A stretch of 64,000 bases of DNA, from contig CM049312.1 in assembly GCA_026874595.1 (NCBI GenBank), forward strand, positions 31,623,456-31,687,455. The letters run 5' to 3'. Positions 7,059-50,814 of the stretch are shown in pieces. Source of the stretch: Sipunculus nudus. Taxonomy: Eukaryota > Annelida > Sipuncula > Golfingiida > Sipunculidae. How positions within the stretch are numbered: the first letter of the stretch is position 1; the number at the start of each line of letters is the position of its first letter. Made by a program: the position numbers and the translations under genes. The notes under the pieces were generated by a model. That model ran no database searches. It was not told the origin of the DNA and saw only the letters and a program-made list of their open reading frames with translations.

Positions 7059-8770
7059 AACAAGAGACCCAGGGGTCTAATGTTCGCTCTGTGAATTACT
7101 GTGCATTTTGGCAAGTGATTAAAAAAATTGTTTCAGAAAGATCAGCCCAAGAGTCTCAGAGGAGACTCTGTTTTGGCAGATTATAACAAATAAATACTTA
7201 ATGACATATAATGGATAAAAGCGGAAAAGACCATTACAGCCTGATGAAACCCGGAGGTCAAAATAATTGAGCAGTCACATGATCAATATTACTGTGAAAT
7301 TTGAAACTGAAGGCTGCAGCAGTTCCTAAGATATTTGGTAACAGACAATACATCCTGTATGGAAACACATCAAGTTATCAAATTTTGCAATTGTCACAAT
7401 TTGAAGTTCCTTAGATATGCCATCTTGAAAATGACTTGACTGAATTTATACTCAAATTATTCCCCTTCCTCTAAGAAACTGTTGACTATGATATGAAAGC
7501 CAAAGTATTTATACTTTATGACATATCTTGGAAAAAACAGAAAAGACCATTACAGCCTGTAGAAAGTAGGTCAACACAGGTGGCGCCACCTGCAGGTCAA
7601 AATAAATTCAGCAGTCACATGATCAATATTCCTGTAAAATTTGAAACTGAAGGCTGCAGCAGTCCCTCAGATATTTGGTAACAGACAATACATCCTGTAT
7701 GGAAACACATCAAGTTGTCGTATTTTGCAATCGACAGAATTTGAAGTTCTGTAGAGACGCAATCTTGGAAAAGACTTTATTGAATTTATACTCAAATTAT
7801 TCCCCTTCCTCTAAGGAACTGCTGACTATGATATGAAGGCCAAAATATTAATACTTTATGACATATCTTCAAAAAAGCAGAAAAGACCATTACAACCTGT
7901 AGAAAGTAGTCAACACAGGTGGCGCCACCTGCAGGTCAAAATCATTCAGCAGTCGAATGATCAATATTCCTGTGAAATTTGAAACTGAAGGCTGTAGCAG
8001 TTCCTCAGATATTTGGTAACAGACAATACATCATGTATAGAAACACATCAAGTTGTCATATTTTGCAATCGACAGAATTTGAAGTTCAGTAGAGACTCCA
8101 TCTTGAAAAAGACTTGATTGAATTTATACTCAACTTATTCCCCTTACTCTAAGGAACTGCTGACTATGATATGAAGGCCAAAATATTAAAACTTTATGAC
8201 TTTATTTCGGAAGAAGTGGAAAAGACCATTTCATCCCGCAGAAAGTGGGTCAACACAGGTGGCGCCACCTGGAGGTCAAAATCATTGAGCAGTCACATGA
8301 TCAATATTCCTGTGAAATTTGAAACTGAAGGCTGCAGCAGTTCCTCAGATATTTAGTAACAGACAATACATCCTGTATGGAAACACATCAAGTTGTCATA
8401 TTTTGCGATCGACACGATTTGAATTTCCGTAGAGACGACATCTTGAGAATTTACACACAAATTATTCCCCTTCTTCTAAGGAACTGTTGACTATGATATG
8501 AAGGCCAAAATATTAAAACTTTATGACTTTATTTCGGAAGAAGTGGAAAAGACCATTTGGTCCCGCAGAAAGTAGGTCAACATAGGTGGCGCCACCAAAA
8601 GCTTATTTTTGCATGTCCATCCCATGATTATTAATTCTGCAAAGTTTCATGACGGTAGCTGTTGTGGCTTTTGAGATATTTGGTAACAGACGGTGGACGG
8701 TGGACAGTTGACAGTGGACAGTGGACGTTTGACGCAGCGCCATGGCATAAGTTCACAGAGTGAACTAAAA
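7059..8770 (-). mobile_element. Non-autonomous Helentron-like tandem-repeat element (family 2)
   Basis: Read on the minus strand, the element starts near 8770 with TTTT followed by a perfect 7-bp hairpin (AGTTCAC/GTGAACT, 8750-8766). A GACGGTGG/GACAGTGG microsatellite (about 8690-8735) comes next, then about four and a half tandem units of about 340 bp. It ends near 7059 with AGACCC/GGGTCT (7065-7078) and TTGTTT. Each full unit carries a copy of GGTGGCGCCACC (7579, 7918, 8258, 8585). No protein is encoded. This order (short hairpin, TCCG-type microsatellite, tandem core, palindromic 3' end) is that of the pearl/CvA elements of bivalves, attributed to Helentrons. The 3' palindrome matches those at 29.4, 40.5 and 16.3 kb. 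Confidence 0.7.
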
Positions 8771-8894
8771 CGATATGGCTATGAGCTGGTATGGTTTGAT
8801 GGGTAACTTTTATAATAAGAAAAAATAACCTAATAGGGTGAAATGTTACATATATTATTTTAAAATATATTGATTATGTACCTTAAGCATATAC

Positions 8895-9029
8895 TGCCAA
8901 GCTGGCAGTGTTTTCCGAGATACATGCCAGGACAGCTGCATGAATATTCATACTTTTGTATTAGCACTTTATTGATATGGGAATAGCACGTACCACCGTT
9001 CTCAAAAGGATCTGACTTACAGGGGTTCT
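8895..9029 (-). pseudogene. EGF-like module exon lacking cysteine 2
   Basis: Acceptor ctttttttcag precedes 9029 and donor gtatat follows 8895. The 135-nt exon has phase 1 on both sides, the usual architecture of shuffled EGF modules. It reads NPCKSDPFENGGTC, then YSCSCPGMYLGKHC. The position that is normally the second cysteine (PC-x-NGG) is phenylalanine here, from TTT where TGT is expected, so the C2-C4 disulfide cannot form. The frame is otherwise open. It is the most 3' of four EGF exons on this strand between 8.9 and 12.7 kb. It could be a live but degenerate module or part of a decaying gene. I favour decay because two neighbours are frameshifted. Confidence 0.6.
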
Positions 9030-9070
9030 CTGAAAAAAAGGTTAATTTGTTTGTCATATCAAGACATCAG

Positions 9071-10337: not shown

Positions 10338-10338
<1 letters not shown>

Positions 10339-10410
<72 letters not shown>
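10339..10410. repeat. (TA)n microsatellite
   Basis: A pure TA dinucleotide tract of about 70 bases, just upstream of the non-LTR fragment at 10448. Confidence 0.97.
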
Positions 10411-10414
<4 letters not shown>

Positions 10415-10447
10415 CGATGTTCAACATTAATACATAAATTGAACTAG

Positions 10448-13433: not shown

Positions 13434-13549
13434 ACAGTTATGATTTGTGCCCTTTTAACGGACAGATAAGTGGACAGGTAGACGGACTGACAGACAGACA
13501 AAGAGTGATCCCTATAGCTCAGATGACTTTCAGTCAGCTGAGCAAAAAC
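13434..13549 (-). mobile_element. 5' end fragment of family-1 Helentron-like element
   Basis: On the minus strand it begins TTTTTGCTCAGCTGACT with a hairpin partner AGTCATCTGAGCT (13517-13545), followed by a GTCTGTC/GTCCGTC microsatellite and GTTAAAAGGGCACAAATC. This is the same order as the 5' end of the element at 25771. The core repeats and the 3' end are absent, so this is a truncated copy. Confidence 0.6.
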
Positions 13550-16143: not shown

Positions 16144-19100
16144 TTTTTGTATAAAATTTATTTTTGAGTTCATGCGATGCATGTTTTGATACTTATTTTC
16201 TGTCATCTGATGCGGTCTGGAACAGAGGGAAAAGGAACATAGGGAATAATGAAAAAGTTTCCCATTGGCCATGACGCTCAACATAAAGGCGATGCATGTA
16301 TTAATTATTAATGTTATGATCTGGTGAAGATATTTGAACCTTGAACAATGGATAGAATGACTTCTAGAGGGCTCAAATCAGGCGTTTTTTCCGAAGACCT
16401 TAAAACAGGATACAGCGACCTTTTTTAGTGTTTGCAAGGAGATTTTACCAAGAACTACCTGGATGTTAAGTTCTATGTTCAACTGCTACAATTTGCGTCC
16501 TTACTAAAAGGATGCTTGATGCTCACAGAATATGAGTCACAGTGACTTCATTTTATGTTTCCAAGGTGATTTTACAGGGCCATCCCTAGGTTTAATTAAA
16601 TAAGAATTTTCTAAGTCCAACTGCTACCATTTGTGCCGTCCGACTAACAGGGTGCATAAATCATGTTCGTTCACATAGCTCACAAAATATAGTCACAGTT
16701 ACTTATCTCGGTTATCCAAGGAGACATAACAATCACGCTTTTAGATAAAAAATTTAAGAAAATGGCTACGTCTACCTTTCTTGGTGCTTATAGTTAGGTT
16801 TTCCACTCGTGGATCACAGAATATAGAGCATCATGAGCTAATCTCTGGTATTAAAGCAGATTTGGTCAAGACTGAATAGAATTTAGAAGGTTCTAGGTCC
16901 TAACATTATGATTACATTGTGCCCAGTTTAACTGTTTTGGTGCTCCGAATCATGTTTTTTTTTGCCAGTTGCTGGTTGAAAATAGGTCACCATGGCCTAA
17001 TTTCAGGTTTCTAAGGAGATTGTCCCACGACTCTCATGGATGAAACGTTAGACGATTACAAGGAAAATTGAAACAATTTGTACCCTCTCTGACCGCTCAA
17101 TGTCATGCTTTCGGCCAGTAGCTTGCAAAATATAGGTCACAATGGTCATGGCTTAATTTTAAATTTCAAAGGAGATTTGCCCTGGAACTCTTTTGATGTT
17201 GCGTTAGAAAATACTAGGCCTTGAGTAGAAATTCCACGGTGAAGGTGCTAAAATTATGTTTTTGGCCTGTAGCTTGCAGAATCAAGGTAAATATGACCTA
17301 TTTCCATGTTTCCAATGCGATATGATTTGTACCAATCTGTCACCCAGGGTGATCATATGACATATTTTTCATAAAGATCGTAGAATATAGGTCACCATGA
17401 ACTAATTTACTGTTTCCAAGGACATTTGCCCAGGACCTCGCAGAATGTCACGATAGTAGATTCTAGGCCTATTTATTACAAGTTGTGCTCCGTCTGTCTA
17501 GGTGTTGAAAATCATGGAGACAACTACAGCTTCATTCCGATTGCTGAAGTACACAATATGAAAAGTAGGGCTGCGCGATATTATCGATACATCGTTATAT
17601 CGCGATATCTTGATTCGCATTTTGGATGTAGCGATACAATTTTCAAATATCGATTTTTTTTCGATGTTATTGTTGTAGTAAACTTAACGTTACTGTTACG
17701 AATAGAGACTTCTAAATCGTCTCGGATAAATTATAGACTTAAATTTGAAGCCGTTACCGTATCTTAAAACGTTTAGTAGGAACTTTTCAAGTTGACCTGA
17801 TAAACCAAAGATCAAAGTTCCGTCCAAGGAAATTTGCATGTTTGATCGATAACTTTTTTATATACGAGAAATATCCCCAGAGACACCAAAAAGAAAGAAG
17901 TGCTGAAAACGGACATAGTATTTTAATCATTTATTATTTTCTCTCCTCATATCCTATGATAACTTCAGGAAGTTCAAGTGTCATATTAACAGTATGTTTG
18001 TTTTCAGTACGCCAGCCTTGCGAGGTGATACATGGTTTTGTTTGTGCACACAATTTATTCCTCTCTGTGCTAAACCGCGGTGCAGACTTCTCTAATTCCC
18101 ATGTAAGGCCTATATATAACTGTGATTCTGAATGTATATTACTAAGTAATAGTGCCATATTTTGTTTTTTTTTTAATAAACTTTTCTGCTTTGTTCTATT
18201 ATATTTGTAATGATAAAAAGGTTTTTATAATATTCATACTGTTTATATAATATTAAAACACACTTATTTACTATAAATTTAATCAAATGAAAATATCGCA
18301 GTATATATTGCAATATATATCCACATATCACAATATACTGGAATACGACATTTTTTAGCGATACGCAGCCCGAATGAAAAAAAAGAGAAAGGTAAAGATG
18401 GAGGTTTATTGTCTAATATCACCGAGGATGTCAGTCTCATCCGACTTTACACTTTGCTTTCCTGGTCTTTCGGGCTTGTTCATTCTTGTAGCTTTTCTAG
18501 GAGTATACAACCCAAGCAGCCATATCAGCCGCCAGAAGGTTATTCATTCTATATTTGCGTGCCGCCCACGAACAGTACCCATTCACTCCGGCGGTATGAG
18601 CGAGACGCTAACCACCAACCTTGTGATTGTAAGTCACGCGCCCTATCCATTACGCCACCACGCTCCACGTTTGGATAATATGTCAGTACATGTTTTCAAA
18701 ATGTTATCCGATGTAGACCAATGTTGATAACATTTTTTCGCAAGCCAAAGGTAACATCCATAAAATCCATTATAGAGACATAAGTAGGAGCAATATTCTG
18801 CCTATTCTTTCACACTATCAGTTCAGTTTTGCATCATACAAAAGTTTTCCAAGCAAAACCATTCCAGCACACAGTCTCAGTACCTCGCATACGGCTTGTT
18901 TAACCTTCTGTGTGTTTGTAAACACAGTCCACGTGTGTATGTTAAACTTCAAAAGGCCGCGTTGACAGAGGTCCGATTTTGCCTATGCGCGCCAAATCCA
19001 AAAAGAACTTGTCCAAACTAGTCCATAAATGAACCTTTATTCCCTTTGATGTATGGTATTTTCCATGGGCCGAATCGTAATTCATTGTAGAACCTGTCGG

Positions 19101-22100
19101 GACAAAACCGTACGATAAGTCCAGGGGCAATCAACTGAAATCACATGCGTAGCACAGTGTGAGCCGCAACACGCGATTATTCAGCAGCGGGAACATGTAT
19201 TATATTTTTTGGGCCAAGTCATTCAGGTGTTGAGGCCCGGGAGATGCACGGTTTCAGGGCAATACTTTGGCAGGTACCTATTTATTAAAAACGGAGAAGC
19301 TATTTTTCGTATTAGTTCAGCATGCTTTATAGGTGCTTAGATCTCTTTAAACTAAAGATATTCTGAATCACAACTTATATATTAGGTACAGCTATATGTT
19401 TATGAGGACATAGAGCGGGGTTCATTAACTGGTATTATGGCCTCCCTTGTTCTGCCAGGAAGTTGTGAATTCGGAATCGTAAAAGATATCGTGATCGTTT
19501 TGCTTGTGCAGGTGCATGGACAAGAAGCAATTTTTTCACTTGGCATAGAGTTTATACCTGTTGATTCTTTGGAGCTCGGGACTCTTTCAAATTATATTAA
19601 AGGCTGTCATGATCAGTATTTTCACTGAAGAATCCCCTGCTGTCTTAAGAATAGACAGCATCGAGGAAGAATGCCCTAAAACAAGACAAACATTGAGTAA
19701 AGGTTTCCTGTATTGAAATTACAAGAAATATAATGTTATCCAAATTGTTCTCATGTGTATCAACTCCAAAAATTTATTGCAGAATCATTTCAAATATTAA
19801 ATTTCTTCTTATTACTTTTATATGTTGCATTCGCAGTAATAAAATGTTTATATGTGTTTTGTACTTTTGGCGCGAACTCAAAGATTGCAAAGTGATTTAA
19901 ATTAAGAGGAAAAAGAAAAATATGATGATTATTACCTTACTTGAAATTACCACAATTTATCAAGGGAACCATTTTGTTTATTATAACGGACGTAAATATA
20001 ATTTTTAATTTGTGCGTTTAAACGATTATATGATTTAAAATAGAATATCTCTCAACAAGAGTATTGTTATTTACGGTAAATATCGCTTTTGCTTCTCAAC
20101 GCCATCTAGTATTCAAACATTAAACGATTTAGAAGTATATGATATCTGTCTTTTCGATTGAACGTTAGCGTTTATAATATGTAAGCTCAACGCAGTGAAG
20201 TGTTCTCTTTTGGCGTTGGCAAATGTATGAGAATATACAAAGGAATTATCAAGTTTTCACGTTATGTGTTTCACAAGATGGTGGTGAGATGTGGTAGCGG
20301 CTTAAGCGTAACTGTATCCGCCAAAACAAAGTTTTGCGGATACTACGTTTTCAGTCAGACGCCGCCGCTGCCGCCGCTTAGGTTTCCGGAGAACTCCTCC
20401 AAAAACTCTGGGCAGAAGTTTTTGAAATTCGGAATTATGATCGGGTCACATGTGAACTGCTGCGCCCTGATTTTGGTTAACCTCTGACCTTTCCTCTCTG
20501 CCCAGCGTCCATACTTGCGTCTGTTGCTACACATAAACCCACATATCTCGGGAACCGTTTGACCGATCAGGCTAAAAACAGTGCGCAAATGTAGCCCTTA
20601 GATAGCTTTATAACACACAAAAAATGGTGGCGCCACCTGCAACAATTTTTGCATAGCGTCCATCTGTTCATCTACCTTGGGATAAAATCACTCATATCTC
20701 TGCATTGGTTGGACAGGTGGCGCCACCTTCATTTACGTTTATGCTGCACATATCCAAGCTCATATCTCGGAAACCATTTGATCGATTGGGCCAAAATTTT
20801 GCATGTGTATATATCTCACAAAGCTCTATATCATACGCAAAACTACAACCATTTTTGCACAGCGTCCATCTGTTTGTCTGCTATAGGATAAAATCACTCA
20901 TATCTCGGCAGTGGTTTGACCTATCTGCCTTAAATGTTGCATGTTTATACATCTTGGATAGCTTTCTCGGTTTTGTTGCAGGTGGGGCCACCTACATTTA
21001 TGTTTACCCTGCGCCACCTACATTTATGTTTACCCTGCAGACATTCAGGCTTATATCTCAGGAACCGTTTGACATATTCCCCTTAATCATACACAAAATT
21101 GGTGGCGCAACCTGTCACCGTTTTTGCACAGCGTCCTTCTTTATGTCTGCTGAGGGATAAAATCACTCATATACAAGTAGATGTTTGATTTATCTGCCTA
21201 AAATTTTGCATATGTATACAACTTGGACAGCTTTCTGGATTTTGTGGTAGGTGGCGCAACCTACATACGGCTGCAGGTATCTATTCTAATATGCAACACA
21301 CCTCACTCTATTTCCCCTTGCCACTCAATCAATGCCTCACTTCACCCGTCCCACTCTGATTTCGGCGGATACACGTAGTCGCTTGTCGACTACCCATGTT
21401 CTAGTTAATATTGAAGACATATTTTGAGGTAGCCCGTCCTATTATAGATAACACTTTGAGTTGTTTGCCACAATGTTTTTCAGACAGATGTGTCGACAAA
21501 TACTACCGAGATGTTTCAACCGAGTCTCACACCAGAGTACAGCCTGAATGTTACAGCCAACGAAAAGATGGAGCGAAAATACCGACCTAAACAGAATCGA
21601 GAGCTTAATTTTATGGCCTTCACGGATTTAATTTCTTCTGAGGTTAAAGGAAACGTTTGTCTCGAACTTAATGCCTCCATTCAAAGGGTTCCTGAGAATA
21701 TGAATCAGGCGATGGGATGCGTTATATTCAGTGATTCAATCGAAGCAGTTATAAGTTGCCTTAATGACAACAACATAGATAAAATGGATCCAAGTCTGAA
21801 CGATGCAATCTTTGTTCTGCCTCGATCTAGATGCTTACCGGCGTCTTCCCCGATGCGTGTAATATGTGCTAATATGTTTGCCGCAATAGATTTAAAATCC
21901 AATAAACAACCCATGGAAGCCAAGATCTGTGTACTGGATCATAATAACGCCAGACAGATAGCAAATAAAACTCAAAGTGTCCTTAAACGGTTAGCCGAAG
22001 ACGTGTGCGGCTTATCATTTGACGACGGTCATTGGCACTTCAGTTTGGCGTTAAATTCACGACACTGTCATGTACCATATGACCCAACCCGTGCACGCAC

Positions 22101-25770: not shown

Positions 25771-28700
25771 TTTTTAGCTCAGCTGACTGAAAGTCATCTG
25801 AGCTATAGCGATCACTCTTTGTCCGTCGTCCGTCTGTCTGTCTGTCTGTCCGTCTGTCCGTTAACCAGGCACAAAGGGTAACCGCTAGAACTGGAATCTT
25901 CTTACTTAACATTCTGGGAGGTCCATGAAAAATCTCCTTGGAAACCAGAAATTAGGTCTCTGTTACCCATATCCTACGAGCTATGGGGCCCCAAAGTACC
26001 CCCCAGAAAAGTCCAAAATTTCATACAAAAACTTCAATATCTCATTAACTACTTGACTGATGGTCATGATTTTTGGCATACATATTGATCATGAGAGGTT
26101 CCATCAGTTCCTGAAGACTGGTGGCGCCACCTGTATTTTTCGATTTTTTACGAATTTTTTTCTCTATTTTTGAGACCTTTAAAAATGTGAACATCTGTTA
26201 ACAAGGCACAAATCGTAATGACTGGACTTAGAATCTTCATTCTCGACACACTAAGAGACCTATGAAAAGTCTCCATGGAAACCAGAAATTAGGTCTCTGT
26301 TACTCATATCCTTCCAGCTATGGGGCCCCAAACTACCCCCAAGAAAAGTAAAAAATTTCATACAAAAACTTCAATATCTCATTAACTACTTGACTGATGG
26401 TCATGATTTGTGGCATAACTATTGATCATGAGATGTGTCATCACTTCCTGCAGACTGGTGGTGCCACCTTGATTGTTCGATTTTTTACGATTTTTTCCTC
26501 TATTTTTGAGACCTTTAAGGATGCTGTCATCTGTTAGCATGGCACAAATCGTAACGACTGGACCTAGAATCTTCATTCTTGACACACTGAGAGGTCCATG
26601 AAAAATATCCTTGGAAACCAGAAATTAGGTCTCTGTTAACCATATCCTTCGAGCTATGGGGCCCCAAAGTACCCCCCCCCCCCGAGTAGTCAAAAATTTC
26701 ATACAAAAACTTCAATATCTCAATAACTACATCACTGATGGTCATGATTTTTGGCATACATATTGATTATGAAATGTTCCATCAGTTCCTGCAGACTTGT
26801 GGCGCCACCTGTATTGTTTGATTTTTTTACGATTTTTTCCTCTATTTTTGAGACCTTTAAGGATGCTGTCATCTGTTAACGTGGCCCAAATCATAACGAC
26901 TGGACCTAGAATCTTCATTCTCGACACACTGAGAGACCTATGAAAAGTCTCCATGGAAACCAAAATTAGGTCTCTGTTACCCATATTCTTCGAGCTATGG
27001 AGCCCTAAAGTACCCCCAAGAAAAGTAAAAGATTTCATACAAAAACTTCAATATCTCATTAACTACTTGAATGATGGTCATGAATTGTGGCATAACTATT
27101 GATCATGAGATGTGTCATTTGTTCCTGCAGACTGGTGGCGCCACCTGTATCGTTCAATTTTTTACGATTGTTTCCTCTATTTTTTAGACCTTTAAGGATG
27201 CTGTCATCTGTTAGCATGGCACAAATAGTAACGACTGGACCTAGAATCTTCATTCTCAACACACTAGAAGACCTATGAAAAGTCTCCATGGAAACCAGAA
27301 ATTAGGTCTCTGTTACCCATATCCTTTGAGCTATGGGGCCCCAAAGTACCCCCCCAGAGTAGTCAAAAATTTCATACAAAAACTTCAATATCTCAATAAC
27401 TACATCACTGATGGTCATGATTTTTGGCATACATATTGATTATGAGATGTTCCATCAGTTCCTGCAGACTGGTGGCGCCACCTATGTTATCTATCAAGAG
27501 GGTACAAATTGCAACAACTGGACCTAGAAACTTCATTCTTGTCATGCAAGGAGGCCCATGAAGAGTGCCTGTGGAAACTTGAAATTAGGTCTCTGTTACC
27601 CATATCCTTCAAGCTATAGGTCTCTGAAGTATCCCTCAGAATAATGGACAATTTGATACAAAAGCTGAAGTATCTGAACAACTAATACGGAGATCATCAT
27701 GATTCTTTGCATGGATATTGACCATTAAGTGTTTTTAGCTCAGCTGACTGTAAGTCATCTGAAGTATCCCTCAGAATAATGGACAATTTGATACAAAAGC
27801 TCAAGTATCTAAACAACTATTGCAGTGATCACCATGATTCTTTGCATGGATATTGATCATGGAATGTGTCATCAGTTTCTGCAGTATGGTGGCGCCACCT
27901 GTATTTTTTTTTATTTTTACGAATTTTTTTCTCTATTTTTGAGACCTCATAAGATGCGGTCATCTGTTAACATGGCACAAATCGTAACAACTGGACCTAG
28001 AATCTTCTCTCTTGACATGCTGAGAGGCCCATGAAAAGTTTCCTTAAAAACTTGAAATTAGGTCTCTGTTACCCATAACCTCTGAGCTATGGGGCTCCGA
28101 AGTACCCCCCAGAATAATGGAAAATTTGATACAAAAGCTCAAGTATCTGAACAATTATTATATTGATCACCATGATTCTTTGCATGGATATTGATCATGA
28201 AATGTTTCATCAGTTTCTGCATTCTGGTGGCGCCACTGAAAGTCATCTGAGCTGTAGGGATCACCTTTTGTCCGTCGTCCGTCCGGCCATCCAGGCGTCT
28301 GTCTGTTAACAGGGCACAAATCGTAACCGCTAGACCGGGAATCTTCTTACTTGAAATCCTGGGAGGTCTATGGAAATTCTCCTTTAAAACCTGAAATTAG
28401 GTCACTGTGACCTATATTCTTCGAGCTATGGGGTTCTGAAGTACCCCCCAGAATAATGCAAAATTTAATACAAAAGCTCAAGTATCTGAACAACTAATGC
28501 ATTAATCACCATGATTCTTTGCATGGATATTGATCATGGAGTGTTTCATCAATTTCCGGAGATTGGTGGCGCCACCTATATTTTTTTTTATTTTTTTACG
28601 ATTTTTTTTCTCTACTTTTGTGATCTTTAAACATTTGGTCATCTGTAAACAGGGCACAAATCATAATGACTGGACCTAGAATCTTCTGTCCTCATCTCCA

Positions 28701-32971: not shown

Positions 32972-33076
32972 TCATATAGAACATACAGTTGCTAAAATTT
33001 CCAATTTGAGTCGTCTCTTAAAAGATGCACAAGTTATGGCTGACTTAGATTCATTTGATAAACTATTCCATATTTT
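32972..33076 (-). pseudogene. Detached C-terminus of the CR1-like reverse transcriptase
   Basis: In the frame next to that of ORF2, the minus strand reads IWNSLSNESKSAI, then CASFKRRLKLEIL and stops at TGA 32974-32972. This W-N-S-L ... F-K-R-x-L-K pattern is the usual C-terminal tail of CR1/Jockey reverse transcriptases. Its position right behind TYPLDWKS shows a deletion of the whole catalytic polymerase. Confidence 0.7.
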
Positions 33077-35692: not shown

Positions 35693-35989
35693 AGAAGATT
35701 GGAATCACTGGATTAATATTTGGCCCATTAGGCGAGGACACGTTTTAAAATTAGCTCTAAATACGCAAGATTTAATTCTTTTACCAGTGGAAATTGATAT
35801 AAGAGCAACGTGGTACAGGTTTTTTGTCGATTTCAATGCTTTTGCTCAGCTATCAGTGCATAAATAGCCATGAAAATCTCTCCGAAATATCTCCTTGTCC
35901 TCCGACTTTTAGACTCTAATTAAGTCAGTCTCTCATACCCAGATCATTCAGTTTGCACTTAGCAGCAGCTTGCTTCCGTAACCTCATGA

Positions 35990-38340: not shown

Positions 38341-38344
<4 letters not shown>

Positions 38345-39133
38345 ACAGAACCTAATATGAACAGATCACGTATGCGTGATGAACACAAATTCTGTAACGG
38401 AAATTTTTAAAAAATCAGATTCTGTAACACTAGGCAGCGGTAAATGTCTAGGAGAATTGAATAAAGAAGTCAGTGTTTTTTTTTGTTAACAAATAACTAT
38501 AATTTATTCTAAAAAATAACCCTAACAATCCAATACACTAAATCAATACAGTATACAGTAAAACAGCGGTACAGCAACAAGTCAATACAATCACAGAGAA
38601 AATAATGTATTTGCACAGTACCTGGATACCAACACCATCACCACAATAAGTCCTTTAAATGTAAACTCACGGAGAATGACAATCCAGTGGAACGTTCTTG
38701 CAACAACCCAGAAAGAAAACTGAAGTCCAAATGCAAAAAAATCCAGGAGAAAGTCTTTTAAATCAATAATTGCCGCATTCGTAGGATAAGGTCCTACGAT
38801 CTTACACACGCTTCTGCGTCCGTTGGAATCATCTCTGCTGTCTGCCCTCTCCGTTCTGAAACACAGCCCCTTTATATACCTTCACACCTCAAGCCGAGAA
38901 TTTTTCACTTCTCGAACAGTCTATAAGATCTTGCACAACACAGTAAGCACGTGTTTCAGGAATTCTCTAGAAAAACAGCGCTGTGTGTACCTCCACATAC
39001 CAGGGAAAACCCAAGGCTTACATGACAACGAGAGTTCAACCAGTACGGATTAAACATAGATTGTAATACGCGGCTTGACACGAGTGCCACAACAGGAGTT
39101 ACGCCCGTGTCACATAATAAAAAGAACACCTGT

Positions 39134-40512: not shown

Positions 40513-40560
40513 AAACTAGTGGCCCATGGGCCATGACGCTCAGCTGAATTCAATAAACCT
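40513..40560 (-). other. Helentron 3' terminus
   Basis: On the minus strand: TTCAGCTGAGCGTCAT, the perfect 12-bp palindrome GGCCCATGGGCC (40521-40532), then ACTAGTTT. A terminal palindrome near the 3' end is the termination signal of Helitron-type elements. Close matches end the elements at 29389-29422 (plus), 16258-16282 (minus) and 7059-7085 (minus). Confidence 0.75.
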
Positions 40561-41099
40561 TGAACAACGAGCAAATTGACTTACAGAGTGCTGAAAATTA
40601 TGCATTTTGCCAATAGTCCATAAGTTACGGTAATCTTATTCAGGTTTTCCAAATAGATTAGTACTCCAAAGAAAGTTAGAAGTTGCTTTGTCAAACTGCT
40701 ACAATTTGTTCTCATCATTTGCCTAATAGACTGCTAAAGGCATCATATTCTTTTGATACAAGGTTTGATGGGGAGGTCCAACTCATATCACATACAGTTA
40801 CTGATGCATGTGGCTGACAAGTTTGAATATAAATATGATGATAAGAAGTCTGTATTCACAGCACAGAGGTCGGGACCTGTCTCTGTGTAGGGTGAATAAT
40901 ATTTTACTATTATAAGTTTCTGTCTTTCATTATCTGCATAGATTCTGAATTAAAGATTCTCTAGTTGTTAAATTGTGAAGACATAAATTTTTCCACATTA
41001 ACAGCAATTTCATTTGGGTAGGTTTATGTCTGTTAAATCATATCAAACCATTACTAAGAAATTGGGAGTCAAATTCATTCTGAACCAAAATAAAAATGA

Positions 41100-41775
41100 T
41101 CAATCAGTATGAAACTGGAAAACACTCTTTGAAACAACAGTGAACAAGACTTTATGATCAGACCACGTAGCCTCTATTGTTGAAGTTGTAGCATCAGGGA
41201 AGTTAGAAAACACCAGATCAATAAGACTTCCATGATCAGTTGTCTTTTCTGTTACAAGTTGTTGACAGTGTAAAAGATGTGAAAGATCATTCAACGCTGA
41301 CATAGTGTTTTGTTTACTAACATCTATATTAAAATCTCACATTACTAACAATGGTTTTTGGATATCAACATGTGTCATAAGCTGGGAAAGCTTTGATCTA
41401 AAGTCAGACAGTTTTGACTGAGGGGATCTGTACACACTAATCAGTTGTAAGGAAGAGCTTGGTGTATTTACCAATAATACAGATGCATCAATGTTTCCAT
41501 TAGACTGATGATGGACTTCAATGAATGGGTAGAGGTCTTTGTGGACATAGAATGCTAATCCATAGTGTGGTCTTTTTGATAGGCATGTTGAACTTGTTGT
41601 TTAATGATCATTTCGTATCAGTTGAACATTTGGTATACAATATGAATCATCAGAATCAACAGAACACAAACGAGTTTCAGCCAAACCAATGATATGGGTA
41701 TTAAGGATATGACAATCAGAAATCACATCTTTGAAATGCAAATGAAGAGATCTTGTGTTATGGTATATTATCTTC
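41100..41775 (-). pseudogene. Helentron AP-like endonuclease domain
   Basis: Minus-strand translation gives an exonuclease-endonuclease-phosphatase domain: NTHIIGLAETRL (catalytic Glu region), RPHYGLAFYVHKDLYPF, QLISVYRSPQ, then DFNIDVSKQ and WSDHKVLFTV with the terminal Asp-His pair. Stops interrupt it near 41605 and just before DFN (TGA where Gly is expected, about 41340). Only the last 67 codons (41303-41100) form an uninterrupted frame. Helentrons acquired this domain C-terminal to the helicase, where it lies here. The endonuclease of the CR1-like element at 33-34.7 kb is of the same fold but only distantly similar. Confidence 0.7.
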
Positions 41776-42460
41776 AGTGTATCAGTTGGTACAGAAGTCG
41801 GTGGTAAGAATTAAGAGCAAGTTTAGCACCATGACGTAGTCTGGCCCTTTCATTTGTTACTTGTGGATCAGTTGATATTTTGTTTTCATCTAAATTGAAT
41901 ACATGCAAGCCACCCATATTTGTTGCCCTGCCCAATGCAACATAATGTGCATGCCTCAGTTTTCTAGTACTGGTCATATCCACAACCACCTGATCAAGTG
42001 AACTACCTTGAGCTTTCCATATCGTTTTTGCTGCACCAATTTTTAATTGGTCTACAGCCTTTCCTGTAGGTGCAGTGATCAGTATCTTGCACTCCAATGG
42101 ATTTTCACCTTCATTCCCACATAAGTGACGATGTAATGCTTGAAAGAGAGCTTTGAGCAAAACTGATTTACCAACACCTGCCCCATCAGTAAGGAATAGA
42201 TGTAAAGGCTTAGTAGAACATTTTACATGTTTGATAATGTGTTTGAAGACAGTGAGTTGTTTCTCATTTAGACCCTGTACTAACTGTCTGTATTCTATTT
42301 CAGGTATTCTACCAGGCAATGTAAGTGGTTCTTGTGCAGGGGTTCTTGGTGGTAATCCAAGATCAGTTGTCAAATCATAGTTTCTCAGATGATCTGACCT
42401 TTCTGGGTCAAACAAAGCAAATTCTTAACTGGGAACTGGCTGTTGAATTGAATCCTTATT
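41774..42460 (-). pseudogene. Helentron PIF1-like helicase, core deleted
   Basis: The 213-codon frame holds LNEKQLTVFKHIIKHV, Walker A LTDGAGVGKSVLL (GAGVGKS at residues 78-84) and motif Ia ILITAPTGKAV. Then, near 42060, it passes directly into the C-terminal motifs AAKTIWKAQGSSLDQVVVDM and YVALGRATNMGGL. The DEx Walker B and motifs III-IV between them are missing, so an in-frame deletion has removed the catalytic centre. In complete Helitrons this SF1 helicase unwinds DNA during rolling-circle transfer. Upstream, a frameshift near 42420 separates it from the acidic linker. Confidence 0.75.
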
Positions 42461-44190
42461 CTCTGTATGTTCTGTTGTAGGAGCATATTCAGTTTCATGG
42501 TTATACTCAGCTTGGTCCTGTGCTTCTTGTAGGACATCTGCATTGTGCTCATACTGTTTTCTTTTAAATTCAATTTGTATTTTTTTCTTGTTATACTGTT
42601 CCGAGTATGTGAGTGAACCATTCAAAAGGTCTTTGGTTTCATCTCTCCATGATGTGAACAGCAGCAGCCTTTCACGAAAGCAGTTTTCCGGGTCTATTTT
42701 CTCAGTTTAACGAATACATCTTAAAACTCTTGGATATTATTTGCTGCTATGTCTGTTGATTCATGTGGGAGATGCTCAAGCTGTTCTTTACTCTTGAGTA
42801 GAAAAGTTCTTTCGTCTGGAGGGGCAGTGAGTACAAATATTACATCCCTGATGGCTCTTGTCATTGGAAGTTGTAATACCAGATATGCTGCTTCCTGAGC
42901 ACTTATTTCGACAGCATTTAAAAACTGATTTCCCATATCTCTCACCTGCTGTCTGAGAGTTTTATTCCCTTTTCTAGCTTCTTTACAAGAAGCATCTAAC
43001 AAAGCACTCATTCCCCTTTGACTTTTACTGACATAGGAAACTATGTATGTTGCACATGCATAAGGATCAAGAATAAACTGAAGGTCATGGTTAGCTTTCC
43101 ATGCAGTAAACAAAAGTCTCATGTATCCATTGGTTTTTATTTCAGATGGGTACCTTCTAAGGAACACCTTTGGACCTTTAATGGATGTACGCAAGGCCAT
43201 GTAGTAGTCATCTAGAGAGAGTTCTAGAGAGTTTAAGAAATCATGAAAGGAGAGGTCATTTTCAACATTTAAGTTTGCAAGTGCCTAAGAGGTCTTGTGG
43301 TAGTTCTCTTTGTGTTTTTCATCAACTTCTGTGTCATAAGGTGTAAGGATTTTTGGTTGTGGCATGGGTGGCAATGGAAAGTTAAAACGACAAATTGGCT
43401 TTCCATTCTTTCTACAAGACCTGGAGTGTCTGTGTATTTGTAGATCTATCAGATCTTGATGGTCCTCATCATTCTTGCAGAAGGTCACATGATCATCAAT
43501 GTATTTGGTGACAGTATCTTCTTCATGTTGACCATATTTCGGTGCTTCCTCAATCCACATAAGCATATGAATATGTGGGGAGCCACGTTGCTGAAATTCA
43601 ATTCTGTAAAAAAAAACTTTCAGCTTTCCAAGAGGTGAATGTGCACTTTGTAAGATGGTGTGAATGAAGGAATGAACTCTGTGATCAAAATATCGCACAC
43701 AGGTTAGAGGATCTGCTTAAACCAAGCGTGTTTTATCCACCCAATCCATTTGTCTAATATCATCACTTGAATAAGTTCTGCCATCAATCAGTTTTGCAAG
43801 CATGACCAGTAGGTCTTCCCAATGTGTGTCTGCAGCAGAAAGAAATATAAACCATGTTGGCAATCCTAGTTGTCTAATCATTGCAAAGAGATCTTTTTTC
43901 CGTGCTTCAAAATATGGAGGGGAGCCTCGTATGGATCTGAATATCCTGTAGCCTTCATCCAATCTTGTCAACCCATGAACTTTGCTTTCATTTAAGACAT
44001 CCTGGACAGAATACTTCTTCCCTTTAGTTTTGATTCGACGAATTGCTAGGCTAACTTTTCCTGTAATTTATTCTATTTGTAATTTCTTCATTTTGTAGAA
44101 AAGATTTGGAACATTTGCAGCAACTCTGCGATCAAGTGCTCGGAGTTCCCATTTGCAAATGTCACTGTAATGAACAGAAGTTTTTCTTTC
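42461..44190 (-). pseudogene. Helentron Rep (HUH nuclease) with linker, fragmented
   Basis: Three minus frames carry the Rep domain in order. 43971-43717 has LPTWFIFLSAADTHW (motif 1). 43698-43285 has FQQRGSPHIHMLMW, the HUH metal-binding motif (HIH, 43575-43567), plus a CRKNGKPICRFNFPLPP block. 43200-42721 has DPYACATYIVSYVSK with two tyrosines spaced Y-x3-Y (residues 52 and 56), the nucleophiles for strand cleavage. These are the signature motifs of the Helitron replication initiator, which nicks and joins single strands. Stops lie near 43712, 43283 and 44060. After 42721 a charged linker (42625-42425) leads to the helicase. Catalytic residues remain although the frame is broken. Confidence 0.8.
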
Positions 44191-44194
44191 AGCA

Positions 44195-45040
44195 TTATCT
44201 TATCTCCTTTGCCCACAGAATATTGACGGAAATGACATATTCTGCATCTTTGTCTTGAAACAGATTCAAAGGTTTCTGTCCATCACCAGGAGCCACCGAT
44301 ATTATATCATTCCCTATGAGTTCAGTATCATCAAGCATGGTATCTAGAATTCCTCCTTGTTCATCTTCATGTATTTCTTCAAAATTGTCATCATCAGATA
44401 GACTATCATCCACAGAATTGTCAATTGTGGCAAGAGGTTCATGCTCTTGTGAATTTTTGAAAGTCTGAAGCCAATTGCTATTTATTGTAATGTTTGCATC
44501 TTTATACAACTGACTATGTCTCATCAAGTAGTGTAGTGCACTAAGTATTACAGCTGGACGTACATTTTGGGTGCACTCTACTTTTTTGTACCCAAGTTTA
44601 CGTTTTAAACTAATTGGTACAGTAGCCGTGGAGTCTGACGTGCGTGGCAACATATCCACGGTTGTTTCAATCTGAGTAGGTACGTTGACCAGTGATCCTT
44701 TCAGTGACAACTGTGAAACTCTAGGTAATTCTCGTAACTGCACGAATGGTATCCGTAATGCAACAAGCCCTTCCTCTAGGGGACACAAGTTCAATTCAGG
44801 TGGCTTATCAGGAAACTGTATTCCATTTAATACAGAAAGTTTTAGCGTCTTGTGGCATTTGAGAGCATCAAGACAAGTTGTGCATAACCACTTTTTATTG
44901 TCCACTGATTTTACATCTGTAATGTGTGTTGCTAGAAAAGTGGAATCTAGTCTGTCTGGCCAGCTATCAGAATTCTTTACAGAGTGTTTGAACCATGTCT
45001 GATTACAGCAACAATAAGCATATATGGGACCTTCAGTTAT
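44195..45040 (-). pseudogene. Helentron zinc-binding N-terminal region
   Basis: The frame reads CCCNQTWFKHSVKN upstream and, in the 236-codon frame, KKWLCTTCLDALKCHKTLKL, then ALRIPFVQLRELPRVSQL, GSLVNVPTQIE and KRKLGYKKVEC. These blocks form the cysteine-rich segment found before Rep in Helitron-type proteins. Cysteine pairs suggest a zinc finger for DNA binding. An acidic tail (DDSLSDDDNFEEIHEDE) leads toward Rep. Confidence 0.65.
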
Positions 45041-45233
45041 TGAAGTATGAAATTTCTATATACATTCTCTGAGATTTGCACCCTGTTTTCTCTTCAGATT
45101 AACTGCTTTTTCATTTTGTCTGTATGATTCATCAGTTCTTTTTTGTGCTCTAGCAGCTGTGTTTCTCATAGTTTCAGTTCTCTTATGTAATGGATCGGCT
45201 CTTTTCCTCCTTTTGGCAAGTCTCACAGTTTCT

Positions 45234-45963
45234 CTAAAAATCGTCTTCAGATCTTTTTCTTTTTTTACGAGTAGAATCTCTCACACATTCCATTTGTCTA
45301 TAGATTTCATTTTGTCTGGCAGTTTGCTTCCGTTGTTTCTCAGCTTGCCTCTCTTGTGCCCGTCGAACTTGATCTTTTCTTATCTTTTGATTATATGCTT
45401 TCTTTGCAGAAAATTCTTTTTGTCTGTATGTTTCATTCAGTCTAGCAGTTTGCTTCTGTTGTTTCTCAGCTTGCCTCTCTTGTGCCCGTCGAACTTGATA
45501 TTTTCTAATCTTTTGATTATATGCTTTCTTTGCAGAAAGTTCATTTTTGTCTAAATGTTTCATTTTGTCTTGAGAACAATTTTCTTTGTTGATCTTTTAG
45601 GCTTTCTATATCCCTATGAGCTGGATTCATTCTTTTCTGTTGCATGTACTCTTTCAAATAGTGTTTTCTGTTCATTTTTAGTTGCTGATCTTTAAAGTAT
45701 TCTTGGATCAAGTGAACACCTTGTTGAGAATCATTTTCATGTTCAGGTCTGCTTTTATTTACCGTTTCCATGAGGTCTGTTGTTGACTGGGTTGCATGCT
45801 TTAGCTGGTTATCTGAATTGGTAGACTGTTTAGTTTGGCGTTTCAGTCCCAGTTTAAATGCTTTAGTAGTGACTTGGTTTATTCTGAAATATGTCACTTC
45901 AAACATAGTTGCATTCATCATATTTGCATAGTTTGATATATACTGAAAGCATTCGGACTGCAA
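45234..45963 (-). pseudogene. Helentron charged linker with 43-residue repeats
   Basis: Two frames (45963-45541 and 45563-45234) rich in Lys, Arg, Gln and Asn. The second contains a direct repeat of about 43 residues: KEFSAKKAYNQKIRKDQVRR and a second copy beginning NELSAKKAYNQKIRKYQVRR-type words, each followed by AQERQAEKQ. It ends STRKKRKRSEDDF, a nuclear-localisation-like basic patch. It lies between the peptidase and the zinc region, a position where Helentron proteins often have such basic repeats. Confidence 0.55.
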
Positions 45964-46508
45964 CTCAAATGCAAGGAGAACTGATGTGCCACAAGATGTA
46001 GGATACCCATGATGATTTCTATCATGCTGTGTAGATCAAACACATAGTAACAATTCTGCTGATATGAAATTGCAATCGCGTTTCCTCCAACTATAATATG
46101 ACCATATTTCTTGGAAGTGATTTCTGCCAAAGCATCCTGGTAAAACATATAGGGTGCTTGTACATCAGAATGATTAAGGAAACCACCAGTGATCAAGGTT
46201 GGTTTTATCTTGAAATTATGATCAAGGCATTGTATATACTCTGGTATTTCATCCCAAGCCATGTATCCTTTATCTGGGATATCTGTCACTGTTCTGTACA
46301 AATGATCACCTTCAATTAATATTGTGTCCATATCATTTGTTTGCCATTCAGCAACATCATGCAGGGTGGCATAAAGCAGAGCAACAATTGAATTAGGCAC
46401 ACACTGTTTGCCAACTGAGTCTGATGGAAACTGACGATCACCTTGGTGAAAAGTGCCTTTAACAATCTTACTGATAGATACAGCAGGGACAGGTATAGCT
46501 GAAGCCAT
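45918..46508 (-). CDS. Helentron C76/OTU-like cysteine peptidase
   Basis: 196 codons from a true ATG (46508). Residues 15-165 resemble the peptidase found at the N-terminus of Helentron and related PIF1-type proteins: GKQCVPNSIVALLYATLHDV gives the catalytic Cys36 (with Gln35), and VFDLHSM gives an Asp158-x-His160 pair. That Cys ... D-x-H pattern is shared with C76/OTU-type deubiquitinating peptidases. The likely role is processing or deubiquitination in the host nucleus, by analogy only. The frame ends after a shift: the next frame (45963) overlaps its end, so it was once continuous with the linker. Upstream at 46751-46758 lies a perfect TGACGTCA site. Confidence 0.65.
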   Translation of the reverse strand: MASAIPVPAVSISKIVKGTFHQGDRQFPSDSVGKQCVPNSIVALLYATLHDVAEWQTNDMDTILIEGDHLYRTVTDIPDKGYMAWDEIPEYIQCLDHNFKIKPTLITGGFLNHSDVQAPYMFYQDALAEITSKKYGHIIVGGNAIAISYQQNCYYVFDLHSMIEIIMGILHLVAHQFSLHLSCSPNAFSIYQTMQI

Positions 46509-46750
46509 AGCTTTGCAAATAAGTTTAAAGTTAAAAGTTTACAAAAATTTGATAAAATCTAAAAATGAAAACAGTAGTACTGGATGACAGAAAGTCAGGC
46601 ACAGTGTATTTAATGGAACTGATTAAGAAAATGAAAACAAGACGAGTAGCTAGGAAGAAATGGGAATATGGTGAAGATGCCTCTGTTTAACAGAGTTCAT
46701 AAAATGGAAATAAATGACAAACTCAAACTCAATAAATGATAATTTTTTAA

Positions 46751-46758
46751 TGACGTCA
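46751..46758. promoter_or_regulatory. CRE-type palindrome upstream of the peptidase ORF
   Basis: TGACGTCA, the full CREB/ATF consensus, about 245 bases upstream of ATG 46508 on the minus strand. It could contribute to the Helentron promoter. Chance occurrence of an 8-mer in this length is possible. Confidence 0.3.
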
Positions 46759-47081
46759 GGTTTATTTTTGCACTGGTTTTATTTTCTTGTTTTTAATCTC
46801 GTTTTTTAATCTCGTTTTTTTTCTGGTTTTGATCTAGTTTTTTTATCTGGTTTTGATCTAGTCTTTTTTTATCTGGTTATCTTGGATCTGGTTTTCTGTG
46901 ATCTGGTTTTTCTTGTTTTGTTAAATATTTGATCTGGATTTTTTCTGGTTTGGTCTTGGCAGGTACCTAAAAAAACATAAAGAAAAAAATTACAGTACTG
47001 GAAAATATTTATTATGAACTGAATACATAAGTAAGGATGAAGTAAAAAGAGCATGCATAATACAGCTGTAATGTATCTGAT

Positions 47082-47402
47082 AACCTCTGACCTCATTAAA
47101 TATGCATGAAATTTGTTGGGAATGTATATCAGCTGAAAAACTCTATTGGTTAATATGTATGATGAGTTTCATGAAAATCCATAGGACTTTTGTTTAGTGA
47201 CCACTGTGCCTCCAAAGTGCAGTGACCTTTGACTTCATTAAATATGCATGGATTTTGCTGGAAATTGAAGTTAGGTGAGATATTTTATTGATTAAAAATT
47301 CTGATGAGTTTGATCCAACTCCTTCATAAGTTATAGTGGCGACACAACCAAGTGGCCTATACAAAGCAGCCTGGTAACCTTTGACCTCATTAAATATGCA
47401 TG
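47082..47402 (-). repeat. Three ~145-bp repeats in the Helentron leader
   Basis: CCTTTGACCTCATTAAATATGCATG-type words occur at 47082-47108, 47223-47250 and 47374-47402, with similar but more diverged sequence between (TATTGATTAA-type and TGATGAGTTT words). They lie upstream of the Helentron ORFs. Confidence 0.65.
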
Positions 47403-49249
47403 AAATCTGCCGAGATTTTACCTTTTTTTACTTTTACCTTGGTTAAAGTGCAGTACAGGTGACCTGCCAAAAAAAATACTGGCTTCCTTACTGATTCCAG
47501 TGATGGAGTGTCATTTTTGTTGCTCCAACATGGAGCTTACTTGATGATTCCATCAACATCCAGTAATGGACAAATTAACAAATTTCTATATGACTGACAT
47601 AAATATAAGACATCAAATTTGATTCAAAAGAAAAATTTAGAATGAGTAATGACAGTTTGCGGTAGGTTACCTTAATTGTACGCTTACCAATACATCTTTT
47701 CCTTTAATAGTACATGTGCATCTTTATTTCAGTAAAATCTTCAATCGATTATACCATCATGAGCCATATCGCCTCGACATCAAGGCCAATTAGCAAGTTA
47801 AACTGCTTGTATACATATCCTGATTATCACCCAACATCGTTTCACTTGGAATTTTAAGCAAAGTGAAATAAATAAAATCAAGTGGTAATGTTGTTCCGAT
47901 GAATCTACTGTACTGCTTGAAATATGGCTTTGATAATAAATATGGCCTCATTATTATATTAAGACATTAAAACATGGAATTTTCCCTTCAAGCAAATATA
48001 CACGAACCTTGTTTACGCCTGCTTCTCAGCCACAAAGTTTGACTGTCAATTTTCCGTTACTGGTTACAGCTCACTGTAACAGTTCTCAACAGTTCTCACA
48101 CGAACAGCTGTTTCTGTACTTTAACAACACGTAGCGCCGGACTCACGGACATTGAACTCAGCAATGGTTCAGCTTTGACTAAAACCAGGACGCCGGATAT
48201 TAAAATACACAGAATAATACCCCTACATGGCATCGACGTCTGATAACAAATAACGAGGGATTCTTTCAAAATGAAAAGTCCACATGGCGCAAAAATTTAA
48301 TAAAATCTTAAATCAGACTAACATGCAAAAAATATATATACATATATATATAAAATACCAGTGTAACATATTGGTCTCTTCCTGAACATAAAACAATACA
48401 TTTACATTACAACATACAGTAAACACAGATACATTTAATCAAGTGAATGGTTGATACTTGCAGTAACCCATACTCAGGTTCAGTTTTGTTAACTGAAGTC
48501 TGAAGGAAACAAACTAGAGATAGACACATTACCCGAAATGAAACAAGGAAAAAAATTCATGAAGATCATAATACAGGAAATTTCCCATTTTAACTGGCTA
48601 TTTTAACAAAAGACATGATTAACATGTTTCCTGCTGTCACCATGGATTTAAATTGAACCTAACATCTCAGAGAGATTAAAAAAAACACTCTTGGCAGATA
48701 ATTATCTAATATTGACATCTGATATCCTATATGGTTCACCTACTGACAGACAACTACTAATATTTCAATATTCCTACATCATAATATTATTACATTCTTA
48801 CATTCTAATCAAATTATAGCATATTTTTTTAGGCCACTTTGACAAAACACCTTATGTCTAATGAAGATCTTTAATATACAGATTGTGTGAATAATATATT
48901 GTTAAAAGCCTTGCAACTGAAAATTTTATACAGATAATGCTTTATGTGATAATTAGAGTGCACAAATGATATTTGTCTGAAAGTTGAAACATAAGCCATC
49001 ATATAACTTTTAAGAACAAGAAATTTTATTATATAATGTTCCTGTGCATAAGGGTCCATCAGGCCAATTCAACCAATTATTTTTCAACACTTATAACATA
49101 GTATTCTTCTCCATACAGTCCTTGCCTGGTTCATTCAACAGCAGAATTCCTGTGTGTTCCATCAGCTGAACAGAGTGGTGTCTGTTTTCTCTGCTCGAGT
49201 CTTCTTCAGATAGGCAGTAGTTATTCAGATACTGGAGCTTTTGTATCAG

Positions 49250-50814
49250 ATTTTTAATTATTCTAGGGGGTATTTACGAACCCCATAGGTTGGAGGCTCT
49301 GGGTAACAGAGACCTGATATTTCTGGTTTTAAAGGATATTTGTTATGAACCATCCTGGATGTCAAGTTAAACGATTACAGGTCCTATGGTTAAGATTTGT
49401 GCCAGGTTAATGGTTGACCGCATCTTTGAAGGTCTCAAAAATAGAGAAAATTGCATACGTTTTGAAAAAAAAATCCATGTGGTGCCACCAAACTGCAGAA
49501 AAACAAATGAAACACTCCATGAAGAATGTTCATGCAAAAATCCATGGTGATCAATGCATTAAGTGTCAAGATAGTGCAGCTTTTGCATTAAATTTTTAAT
49601 TATTCTGGGGGGTACTTCTGAGTCCTATAGCTCACAGGATATGAGTAACAGAGACTTACTTTCAGGTTTCCAAAGAGAATTTTCATGGATCTCCGTGGGT
49701 GTCAAGTTAGTAGATTCAATGTGAAATAGTTACAATTTGTGCCTTGTTAATAGAAAAGCACTTCTTTGAAGGTTTCAAAAATAGAGGAAAAAACACGTCA
49801 AAATTCGACAAAATCCATGTGGCACCACCAGTTTGCAAGAATGAATGAAACACTCCATAATGAATATCCATGCAAAAAATCATGGTAATCAATGCATTAG
49901 TTGTCCAGATAGTGCAGCTTTTGCATTAAATTTTTAATTATTCTGGGGGGTACTTCCGAGTCCTATAGCTCACAGGATATGAGTAACAGAGACTTAATTT
50001 CAGGTTTCCAAAGAGAATTTTCATGGATCTCCGTGGGTGTCAAGTTAGTAGATTCAATGTGAAATAGTTACAATTTGTGCCTTGTTAATAGAAAAGCACT
50101 TCTTTGAAGGTTTCAAAAATAGAGGAAAAAACACGTCAAAATTCGACAAAATCCATGTGGCACCACCAGTTTGCAAGAATGAATGAAACACTCCATAATG
50201 AATATCCATGCAAAAAATCATGGTAATCAATGCATTAGTTGTCCAGATAGTGCAGCTTTTGTATCAAATTTTTAATTATTCTGATGGGTATTTACGAGCC
50301 CAATACCTCGGAGGATATGGGTAACAGAGACCTTATTTCAGGTTTCCACAGATACTTTTCATTTACCTCCCTGGATGTCAAGTTAGAAGATTCCAGGTCC
50401 AGCAGTTACGATTTGTGCCCTGTTGACAGATGACAGCTTCTTTGAAGGTATCAAAAATAGAAAAAAAAATCGTAAAAATGAGAAAAGTACAGGTGGCGCC
50501 ACCAGTTTGCAGGAAGTGATGGAACATCCCATGATCAATATTCATGCAAAGAATCATGGTGATCAATGCAGTAGTTATTCAGATATTTTAGCGTTTGTAT
50601 CAAATTTTGCATTATTCTGGGGGGGATTTCGGAGCCCCATAGCTCAAAGGATATGGGCAACAGAGACCTAATTTCAGGTTTCCAAGGAGATTTTTCATGG
50701 AACTCCCTGGATTTCAAGTTTGAAGATTCCAGGTCCAGCGGTTACGATTTGTGCCCTGTTAACGGACGACCGGACGGACGACGGACAAAGGGTGATCGCT
50801 TTGTCATCTGAGCT
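49250..50814 (-). repeat. Helentron 5' tandem array and terminus
   Basis: About five units of 338-344 bp, anchored by the GGGGGGTACTTCCGAG-type word at 49267, 49611, 49949, 50287 and 50624. The units at 49613-49950 and 49951-50260 are nearly identical; the others are diverged. The minus-strand 5' end is TTTTTTAGCTCAGATGAC then GCGATCACCCTTTGTCCG and a GTCCGTC microsatellite, as in the element at 25771 but without the second hairpin arm. One unit has an exact GGTGGCGCCACC (50492-50503). Confidence 0.75.

Follow-up and report, generated by a model that had tools for sequence, protein, structure and literature searches.

A window of 64,000 nucleotides from Sipunculus nudus (GenBank assembly GCA_026874595.1, contig CM049312.1, positions 31,623,456 to 31,687,455 of the forward strand) was found to contain three repeat-only transposable elements, designated A, B and C, a degenerate coding Helentron, designated H, and a separate array, D (Table 1; positions are those of the window). 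The element of main concern is A, a Helentron-associated interspersed element (HINE) whose ends and tandem array were matched to those of a coding Helentron elsewhere in the genome, the C17 copy, named here after its contig.

Table 1. Features of the 64,000-nucleotide window. subTIR, subterminal inverted repeat; LTR, long terminal repeat; ORF, open reading frame.
Feature	Position	Strand	Basis or remark
Element C, repeat-only HINE, other subTIR type, 1706 bp	7061..8766	-	Ends, genomic copies
C array, 340-bp monomers; distant kin of A/H monomers around internal palindrome	7240..8692	-	Profile, alignment
Solo 5' end, A/H type, after T-run	13435..13542	-	End comparison
Element B, decayed repeat-only, A/H-family half-monomers, decayed 3' palindrome	~16256..17500	-	Profile
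Array D, diverged member of 280-bp repeat family, five near-perfect internal palindromes	20542..21266	+	Alignment
Element A, repeat-only HINE, 3645 bp	25776..29420	+	Flanks TTTTT/AGCTCAG ... CACTTG/TT
A 5' subTIR GCTCAGCTGAC and inverted copy (hairpin), then GTCC/GTCT microsatellite	25776..25804	+	z -4.13
A array, ~336-338-bp monomers, then 166-bp half-monomers	25856..29320	+	Monomer comparison
Second, internal 5' end within A; tip deleted in window copy	28237..28300	+	Complete in C17 copy
A 3' subTIR and palindrome GACCCCTGGGTC, terminal CACTTG	29390..29420	+	Sequence, genomic copies
Solo LTR, empty copy of H insertion site	38341..39123	+	Lacks H
Element H, degenerate coding Helentron, 10299 bp, in LTR	40516..50814	-	Ends ambiguous by few bases (T/A runs)
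H 3' subTIR and palindrome GGCCCATGGGCC, terminal CACTAG	40516..40548	-	Sequence
H endonuclease remnant, two in-frame stops, frame differs from helicase	41100..41810	-	E 0.055
H PIF1-type helicase remnant, core absent between Walker A and last motifs	41774..42424	-	Domain alignment
H Rep region, Helentron-type IEFQQRGSPHIH	42721..44067	-	PF14214, E 8.5e-10 and 1.9e-12
H DUF6570 ORF	44195..45055	-	PF20209, E 2.1e-14
H ORF, Herpes_teg_N (OTU-like protease)	45918..46538	-	PF04843, E 2.5e-11
338-bp array, 5' part of H	49214..50767	-	A family and orientation, 68-82% monomer identity
Other LTR of retroelement hit by H, second empty copy of site	56091..56841	+	Lacks H

Element A had the HINE features that were tested, namely a 5' and a 3' subTIR, an inverted repeat at the 5' end and a palindrome at the 3' end. 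It started at TTTTT/AGCTCAGCTGACTGAAAGTCATCTGAGCT (a slash marks the element boundary), followed by the microsatellite, the array, the 3' subTIR and the palindrome, and ended at CACTTG/TT. Folding of the 5' hairpin was strong in A but not in C (z -1.67) or H (z -0.84). When the genome (1.43 Gb, 153 contigs) was searched with the 3' parts of A and C, 1092 and 867 first-look candidates were found, respectively, which are lower bounds for candidates and not confirmed copy numbers. Among the best 40 scored for each, the 39 non-self matches were 98-100% identical for A and 94-97% identical for C, and they stopped at query positions 224-237 and 182-195, the element ends being at 221 and 180, respectively. 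All eight A loci that were fetched (the window copy counted, with seven distinct flanks) ended at CACTTG/TT, and one of them, L004, was a complete 1.6-kb repeat-only copy running from TTTTT/AGCTCAG to CACTTG/TTTTT. The ends of A and C are thus made firm by recurrence at genomic copies, and the 3' ends seen for A were uniform.

The internal 5' end of A was complete in five of the eight fetched loci (L002, L003, L006, L008 and L005), shortened in the window copy, and absent or not seen in L004 and L007. In L002, L003, L006 and L008 the array ahead of it was collinear with that of A (98-99% identity over approximately 510 bp), indicating that the composite moves as a unit; the upstream array of L005 was 79% like that of A. 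Directly ahead of A, a weak 7tm_1 match at 24811-25305 (19.2 bits, cut-off 30.5) is perhaps an exon of a receptor gene.

The order of features in H was as in A, with a coding block added between the array and the 3' end. Two LTR copies hold the insertion site of H in its empty state; the junction falls in a run of Ts, with an uncertainty of a few bases, and there was no target duplication. This 40.5-50.8 kb element had been annotated initially as encoding Rep, helicase and endonuclease and had been taken as the enzyme source. Regions of all three were present; however, the Rep region carried in-frame stops at 43717-43719 (within the Pfam domain) and 43285-43287, the endonuclease also carried stops, and approximately 985 bp of C17 sequence, including the helicase core, was absent from the helicase. 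H is dead, and because of these lesions it was rejected as the enzyme source. The Helentron frame of H also held an in-frame tandem repeat at 45293-45564 (126-bp unit, 2.1 copies), and that of the C17 copy (L059) held one of 8.3 copies of a 63-bp unit; both form charged, glutamine-rich stretches. A monomer-like stretch at 40710-40624, near the 3' end of H, was too weak for use (E 0.007). The LTR retroelement at 51869-56841 (-) had gag/SCAN-like, protease (DTGSG by eye), integrase, reverse transcriptase and RNase H regions, with the integrase ahead of the reverse transcriptase and Ty3-like domains, as in Gmr1-type elements.

A comparison of the H Rep piece with the genome gave 229 candidates, of which 150 were scored, with 153 matches. 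The downstream side was fetched for 20 coding copies and ends were sought by two motif scans, which revealed an end in seven: L039, L042 and L049 had an H-like 3' end, L047, L048, L050 and L053 ended in CAGCTGAGCATCATGACCCATGGGTCACTTG or one base off, and a second end was present in L042, L050 and L053. Neither scan found an end in the other 13, including C13 and five distant long-frame copies. The C17 copy (L047 with L022, L059 and L060) is 14883 bp long (contig C17, 35640361-35625479), lies between TTTTT and TTTTT, and has one open frame of 2342 amino acids (aa) for an OTU-Rep-helicase-endonuclease protein; two pieces of it, when scanned, gave OTU-like, Rep, PIF1 and endonuclease domain matches. 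Its Rep motif VEFQQRGSPHIH and that of H, IEFQQRGSPHIH, agree with the Helentron HUH motif 2 signature, (V/I)ExQxRGSPHxH as given in PMC4067079, and both regions matched PF14214. The PIF1 match (PF05970) was nearly full length, covering positions 2-219 of 223 in C17 and 2-218 in C13, and an endonuclease was found after the helicase in C13 (PF14529, 33.8 bits, cut-off 27.4) and in the distant copy L058 (PF03372, 50.5 bits, cut-off 24.5). The features expected of coding Helentrons, namely an HUH Rep, a PIF1-type helicase, an AP-type endonuclease fused after the helicase and T-rich insertion without duplication, were each seen among the tested copies.

Rep sequences were compared at 30 loci, the window copy included. 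On other contigs, three copies had Rep DNA identical to that of C17 at 424/426, 423/426 and 419/423 positions, respectively, and in these four copies the last approximately 323 bp were alike at 315-316 of 323 positions, with four different 3' flanks. These near-identical Rep regions and tails in differing surroundings indicate that the C17 lineage moved recently. A second, distant Helentron clade was seen in L054-L058, with Rep 38-43% identical to that of H, open frames of 2229-2426 aa and a nearly uniform length after Rep (1280-1282 aa).

The 5' end of A was identical to that of C17 at 106 of 113 positions and to that of H at 77 of 92; for the 3' end, the values were 31 of 33 and 28 of 33, respectively. 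Moreover, A 27761-28903 was 90.3% identical to C17 over 1175 bp, spanning the composite array with its nested second 5' end. That a coding and a repeat-only element both contain so rare a composite argues strongly for common descent. Most likely, A derives from the C17 lineage as a non-autonomous element: the probability that it is a HINE which arose from a coding Helentron of this lineage by loss of the coding block is put at approximately 85%, and from the shared ends we infer that the protein of the lineage copied it in trans. It could be argued instead that the arrays are ordinary satellites recombined between unrelated elements, so that the likeness of A to C17 reflects satellite exchange and not descent. 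PMC12628747 proposes that arrays borne by elements exchange with standalone ones, and the 280-bp repeat family occurs both as array D and, diverged, within C17 (71-74% identity), as well as in L061 and L044. However, A and C17 have the 5' end, the microsatellite, the array order, the internal second 5' end and the 3' end all in common and in the same orientation, which makes exchange a very improbable source of the likeness.

The initial annotation had proposed that one enzyme lineage, that of H, serves all of the repeat-only elements. The overall plan and the CTWG-TT end are indeed common to A, C and H, and the 3' palindrome GACCCCTGGGTC is identical in A and C. In contrast, both ends of A were closer to C17 than to H, the subTIR of C was different, and the ends and monomer of C had no match in the 60 loci compared, so that service by the H lineage appears unlikely, and no Helentron partner for C was found among these loci. 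With its subTIRs, 5' hairpin, 3' palindrome and T-flanks all present, C follows the plan of A in other letters and is a high-copy HINE family of its own, separate from A. For B, the tie to a coding Helentron held in part: 56 bp near its 3' end were 82% identical to the C17-type tail and its array belongs to the same family of repeats, but the element is decayed and its last 31 bp were nearer to H (25/31) than to C17 (22/31). The 5' end of B was looked for in the window and was not found.

A single 3' motif had also been described at the four places, with a more diverged form at 7.06 kb. By direct reading, the 3' ends were GAGCGTCATGACCCCTGGGTCACTTG/TT in A (29395-29420, +), GAGCGTCATGGCCCATGGGCCACTAG/TTT in H (40541-40516, -), GAGCGTCATGGCCAATGGGAAACTTTTT in B (starting at 16279, -), where the palindrome was lost, and GAGCGAACATTAGACCCCTGGGTCTCTTG/TTT in C (7089-7061, -). 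The 10-mer GAGCGTCATG, with at most one mismatch, gave five matches in the window compared to 1.61 expected, and because 1 of 100 shuffles also reached five, it is a weak signal alone. GAGCG followed by a perfect 5-bp hairpin gave five matches, three of them at named ends (A, H and C, not B); in 60 shuffles, the mean was 0.88 and the maximum 4. The subTIR of A, GCTCAGCTGAC, matched at 11 of 11 positions by eye (12 with one mismatch by script), that of C, GTTCACTCTGTGA, at 12 of 13 and that of H, GCTCAGATGA, at 9 of 10. When 3000 pairs of window pieces were drawn at random, 21, 13 and 188 of them reached the level of A, C and H, respectively, and the H subTIR alone is therefore weak. These findings show the motif at each of the four places, but with a decayed palindrome in B (16.3 kb) and, in C, with the palindrome of A beside a subterminal repeat unlike those of A and H; one terminal motif for all four elements was thus ruled out. 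The initial annotation had overlooked the 5' ends, the array carried by the coding element and the separate subTIR of C.

Several observations weigh against the derivation of A from the C17 lineage. The first 1.2 kb of A was only 76% identical to C17, and no coding copy with the 220-bp tail of A was found, what A and C17 have in common being the 5' part and the last approximately 33 bp. Two coding copies, C17 and H, were read at the 5' side. The endonuclease match of C17 (PF03372, 21.4 bits) was under the cut-off and its last segment departs from H, so that C17 may itself lack full function. Folding of the 3' ends as single strands was unexceptional (z -0.27 for H, -0.36 for A, -1.45 for C and +0.55 for B).

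In the derivation that we prefer, a C17-lineage Helentron would have lost its coding block and kept the 5' end, the array just inside it and the 3' end, giving A, the repeat-only form presumably being second in order. The Rep-helicase-endonuclease protein of the lineage would probably copy A in trans by a rolling circle: it would nick the 5' end, displace a strand across the array and stop at the 3' subTIR and palindrome, and the copy would insert between Ts without target duplication. Every round of copying would spread the satellite-like array. Nesting may also enlarge arrays, since the T-rich spacers in the monomers are insertion targets and one of them holds the internal second 5' end. H would then be a dead cousin, B an old derivative and C a separate HINE family. 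The direction and order of these events, like the rolling-circle steps, are inferred. Mobilisation in trans by Helentron proteins, claimed initially for all of the repeat-only elements, is thereby supported for A through the ends, array and composite common to C17, and the enzyme source to which its satellite array can be linked would be the C17 lineage, not H.

The monomers of A and H were 68-82% identical in 16 comparisons (four by four). A profile of eight A/H monomers found B (best E 1e-17) and C (four matches, E 8e-8 to 3e-5, with monomer-like spacing and in the same orientation), compared to a best E of 0.13 in 21 shuffled or reversed windows. Gapped alignment of A with C gave 0.72-0.79 identity in two other 12-bp blocks (0.79 at best); this alignment omits the first of the five array-D palindromes, which the ungapped flank comparison given below includes. 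The sharing of other blocks indicates that the monomers are distant relatives.

The 12-bp internal palindrome GGTGGCGCCACC, with at most two mismatches, was found 21 times in the window compared to 0.38 expected, in all cases inside four arrays: eight in A (five perfect, three with one mismatch), four in C (all perfect), five in D (two perfect, three with one mismatch) and four in H (one perfect, three with two mismatches). The same window scan found none in B or in the half-monomers of A. Perfect copies numbered 111,729 genome-wide, compared to 14 for the same pattern read backwards, and 5 and 6 for a control palindrome of the same composition and its reverse, respectively; within one mismatch there were 218,178 compared to 575 for a control. 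Fetched sequence selected for its Helentron content (291,761 bases) held GGTGGCGCCACC 36 times and none of 29 same-composition control palindromes. All 55 perfect copies that were read, in the loci and the window, had A or T as the flanking base on either side. Array junctions were considered as favouring the palindrome as a recombination point, and this was dropped, the A junction being a nested 5' end in the adjoining T-rich spacer with a later small deletion.

The chances are about even that GGTGGCGCCACC merely survives from a common ancestor of the monomers and became abundant by neutral amplification of young families. In the sequence around it, a distant relationship connects the monomers of A/H and C with those of D and the 280-bp family, A and C have other blocks in common on gapped alignment, three of the four H copies carry two mismatches, and the counts of 111,729 and 218,178 fit an estimated change of approximately 7% per base, which is no less than ordinary monomer divergence; the perfect-to-one-mismatch ratio by itself does not show selection. 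Against neutrality, GGTGGCGCCACC was 83-97% identical between families compared to 24-49% for the ungapped 60-bp flanks (A with H aside). More speculative, and rather doubtful at present, is the idea that GGTGGCGCCACC may be a module that a protein binds and that several transposon families have kept in their repeat units, either for their own replication or as a host site, for example a palindromic double CTCF-like core. The half-site AGGTGGCGC resembles a CTCF core, which we offer as a hypothesis only. A human CTCF-site oligonucleotide with ACTAGGTGGCGCAG is printed in PMC6344568, and PMC7883824 was discarded as a CTCF source, the letters there lying in an unrelated rice gene. If a binding module were the case, Helentron-borne satellites would have spread more than 100,000 sites of a regulatory or architectural kind across this genome, at one per 13 kb. 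The literature listings retrieved for GGTGGCGCCACC included no satellite repeats of this kind.

The array D family may end in an inverted repeat, GTATCCGC..GCGGATAC (window approximately 20314-20344; L044 near 5100), and a palindrome-bearing array may therefore also travel in an element without HINE ends. Elsewhere in the window, a LINE-like (long interspersed element) remnant at 33063-35704 (-) had an endonuclease and a GDSL-like match below the cut-off, and Rfam and tRNA scans gave no match. The terminal and monomer patterns gave no matches in viral contigs, one such pattern gave none in genome contigs, and the Rep piece had no match in phages.

Helentrons and HINEs are an already known kind of element; what is new here is a coding copy that carries the array, together with the common palindrome. 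In PMC7492417, Cg_HINE of Crassostrea gigas is like A in its 11-12 bp subTIR, complementary inverted repeat, GTCY/GTCC microsatellite, central tandem array in constant orientation, 3' subTIR and palindrome, T-rich target without duplication, and two arrays in some elements. The monomers are 336-340 bp here and average 140-180 bp in Cg_HINE, and no link to the HINEs could be established there for any of 10 autonomous elements, whereas here the coding copy has the same ends and array. Pearl elements, DTC84 and MgE of bivalves are likewise described there as short satellite-like arrays within conserved ends, a likeness drawn by description. The passages seen of later papers mention no autonomous element related to satellite-carrying HINEs. 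In the excerpts of PMC4067079, mite, Culex and Drosophila Helentrons have the same Rep-helicase-endonuclease plan, OTU domain and TT target, and their HINEs are deletion derivatives with the ends of coding Helentrons; identity between such pairs is 84-99.9%, compared to 90% in the best shared part here, and tandem repeats are described in some HINE copies but not as an array common to the coding partner. As the coding element has the same array between the same ends, the satellite probably already belonged to the enzyme-bearing transposon when the coding block was lost. The tie to C17 names an enzyme lineage for the spread of such arrays that is open to testing, and the common palindrome raises the question of whether the arrays are merely carried along or are kept for a short motif.

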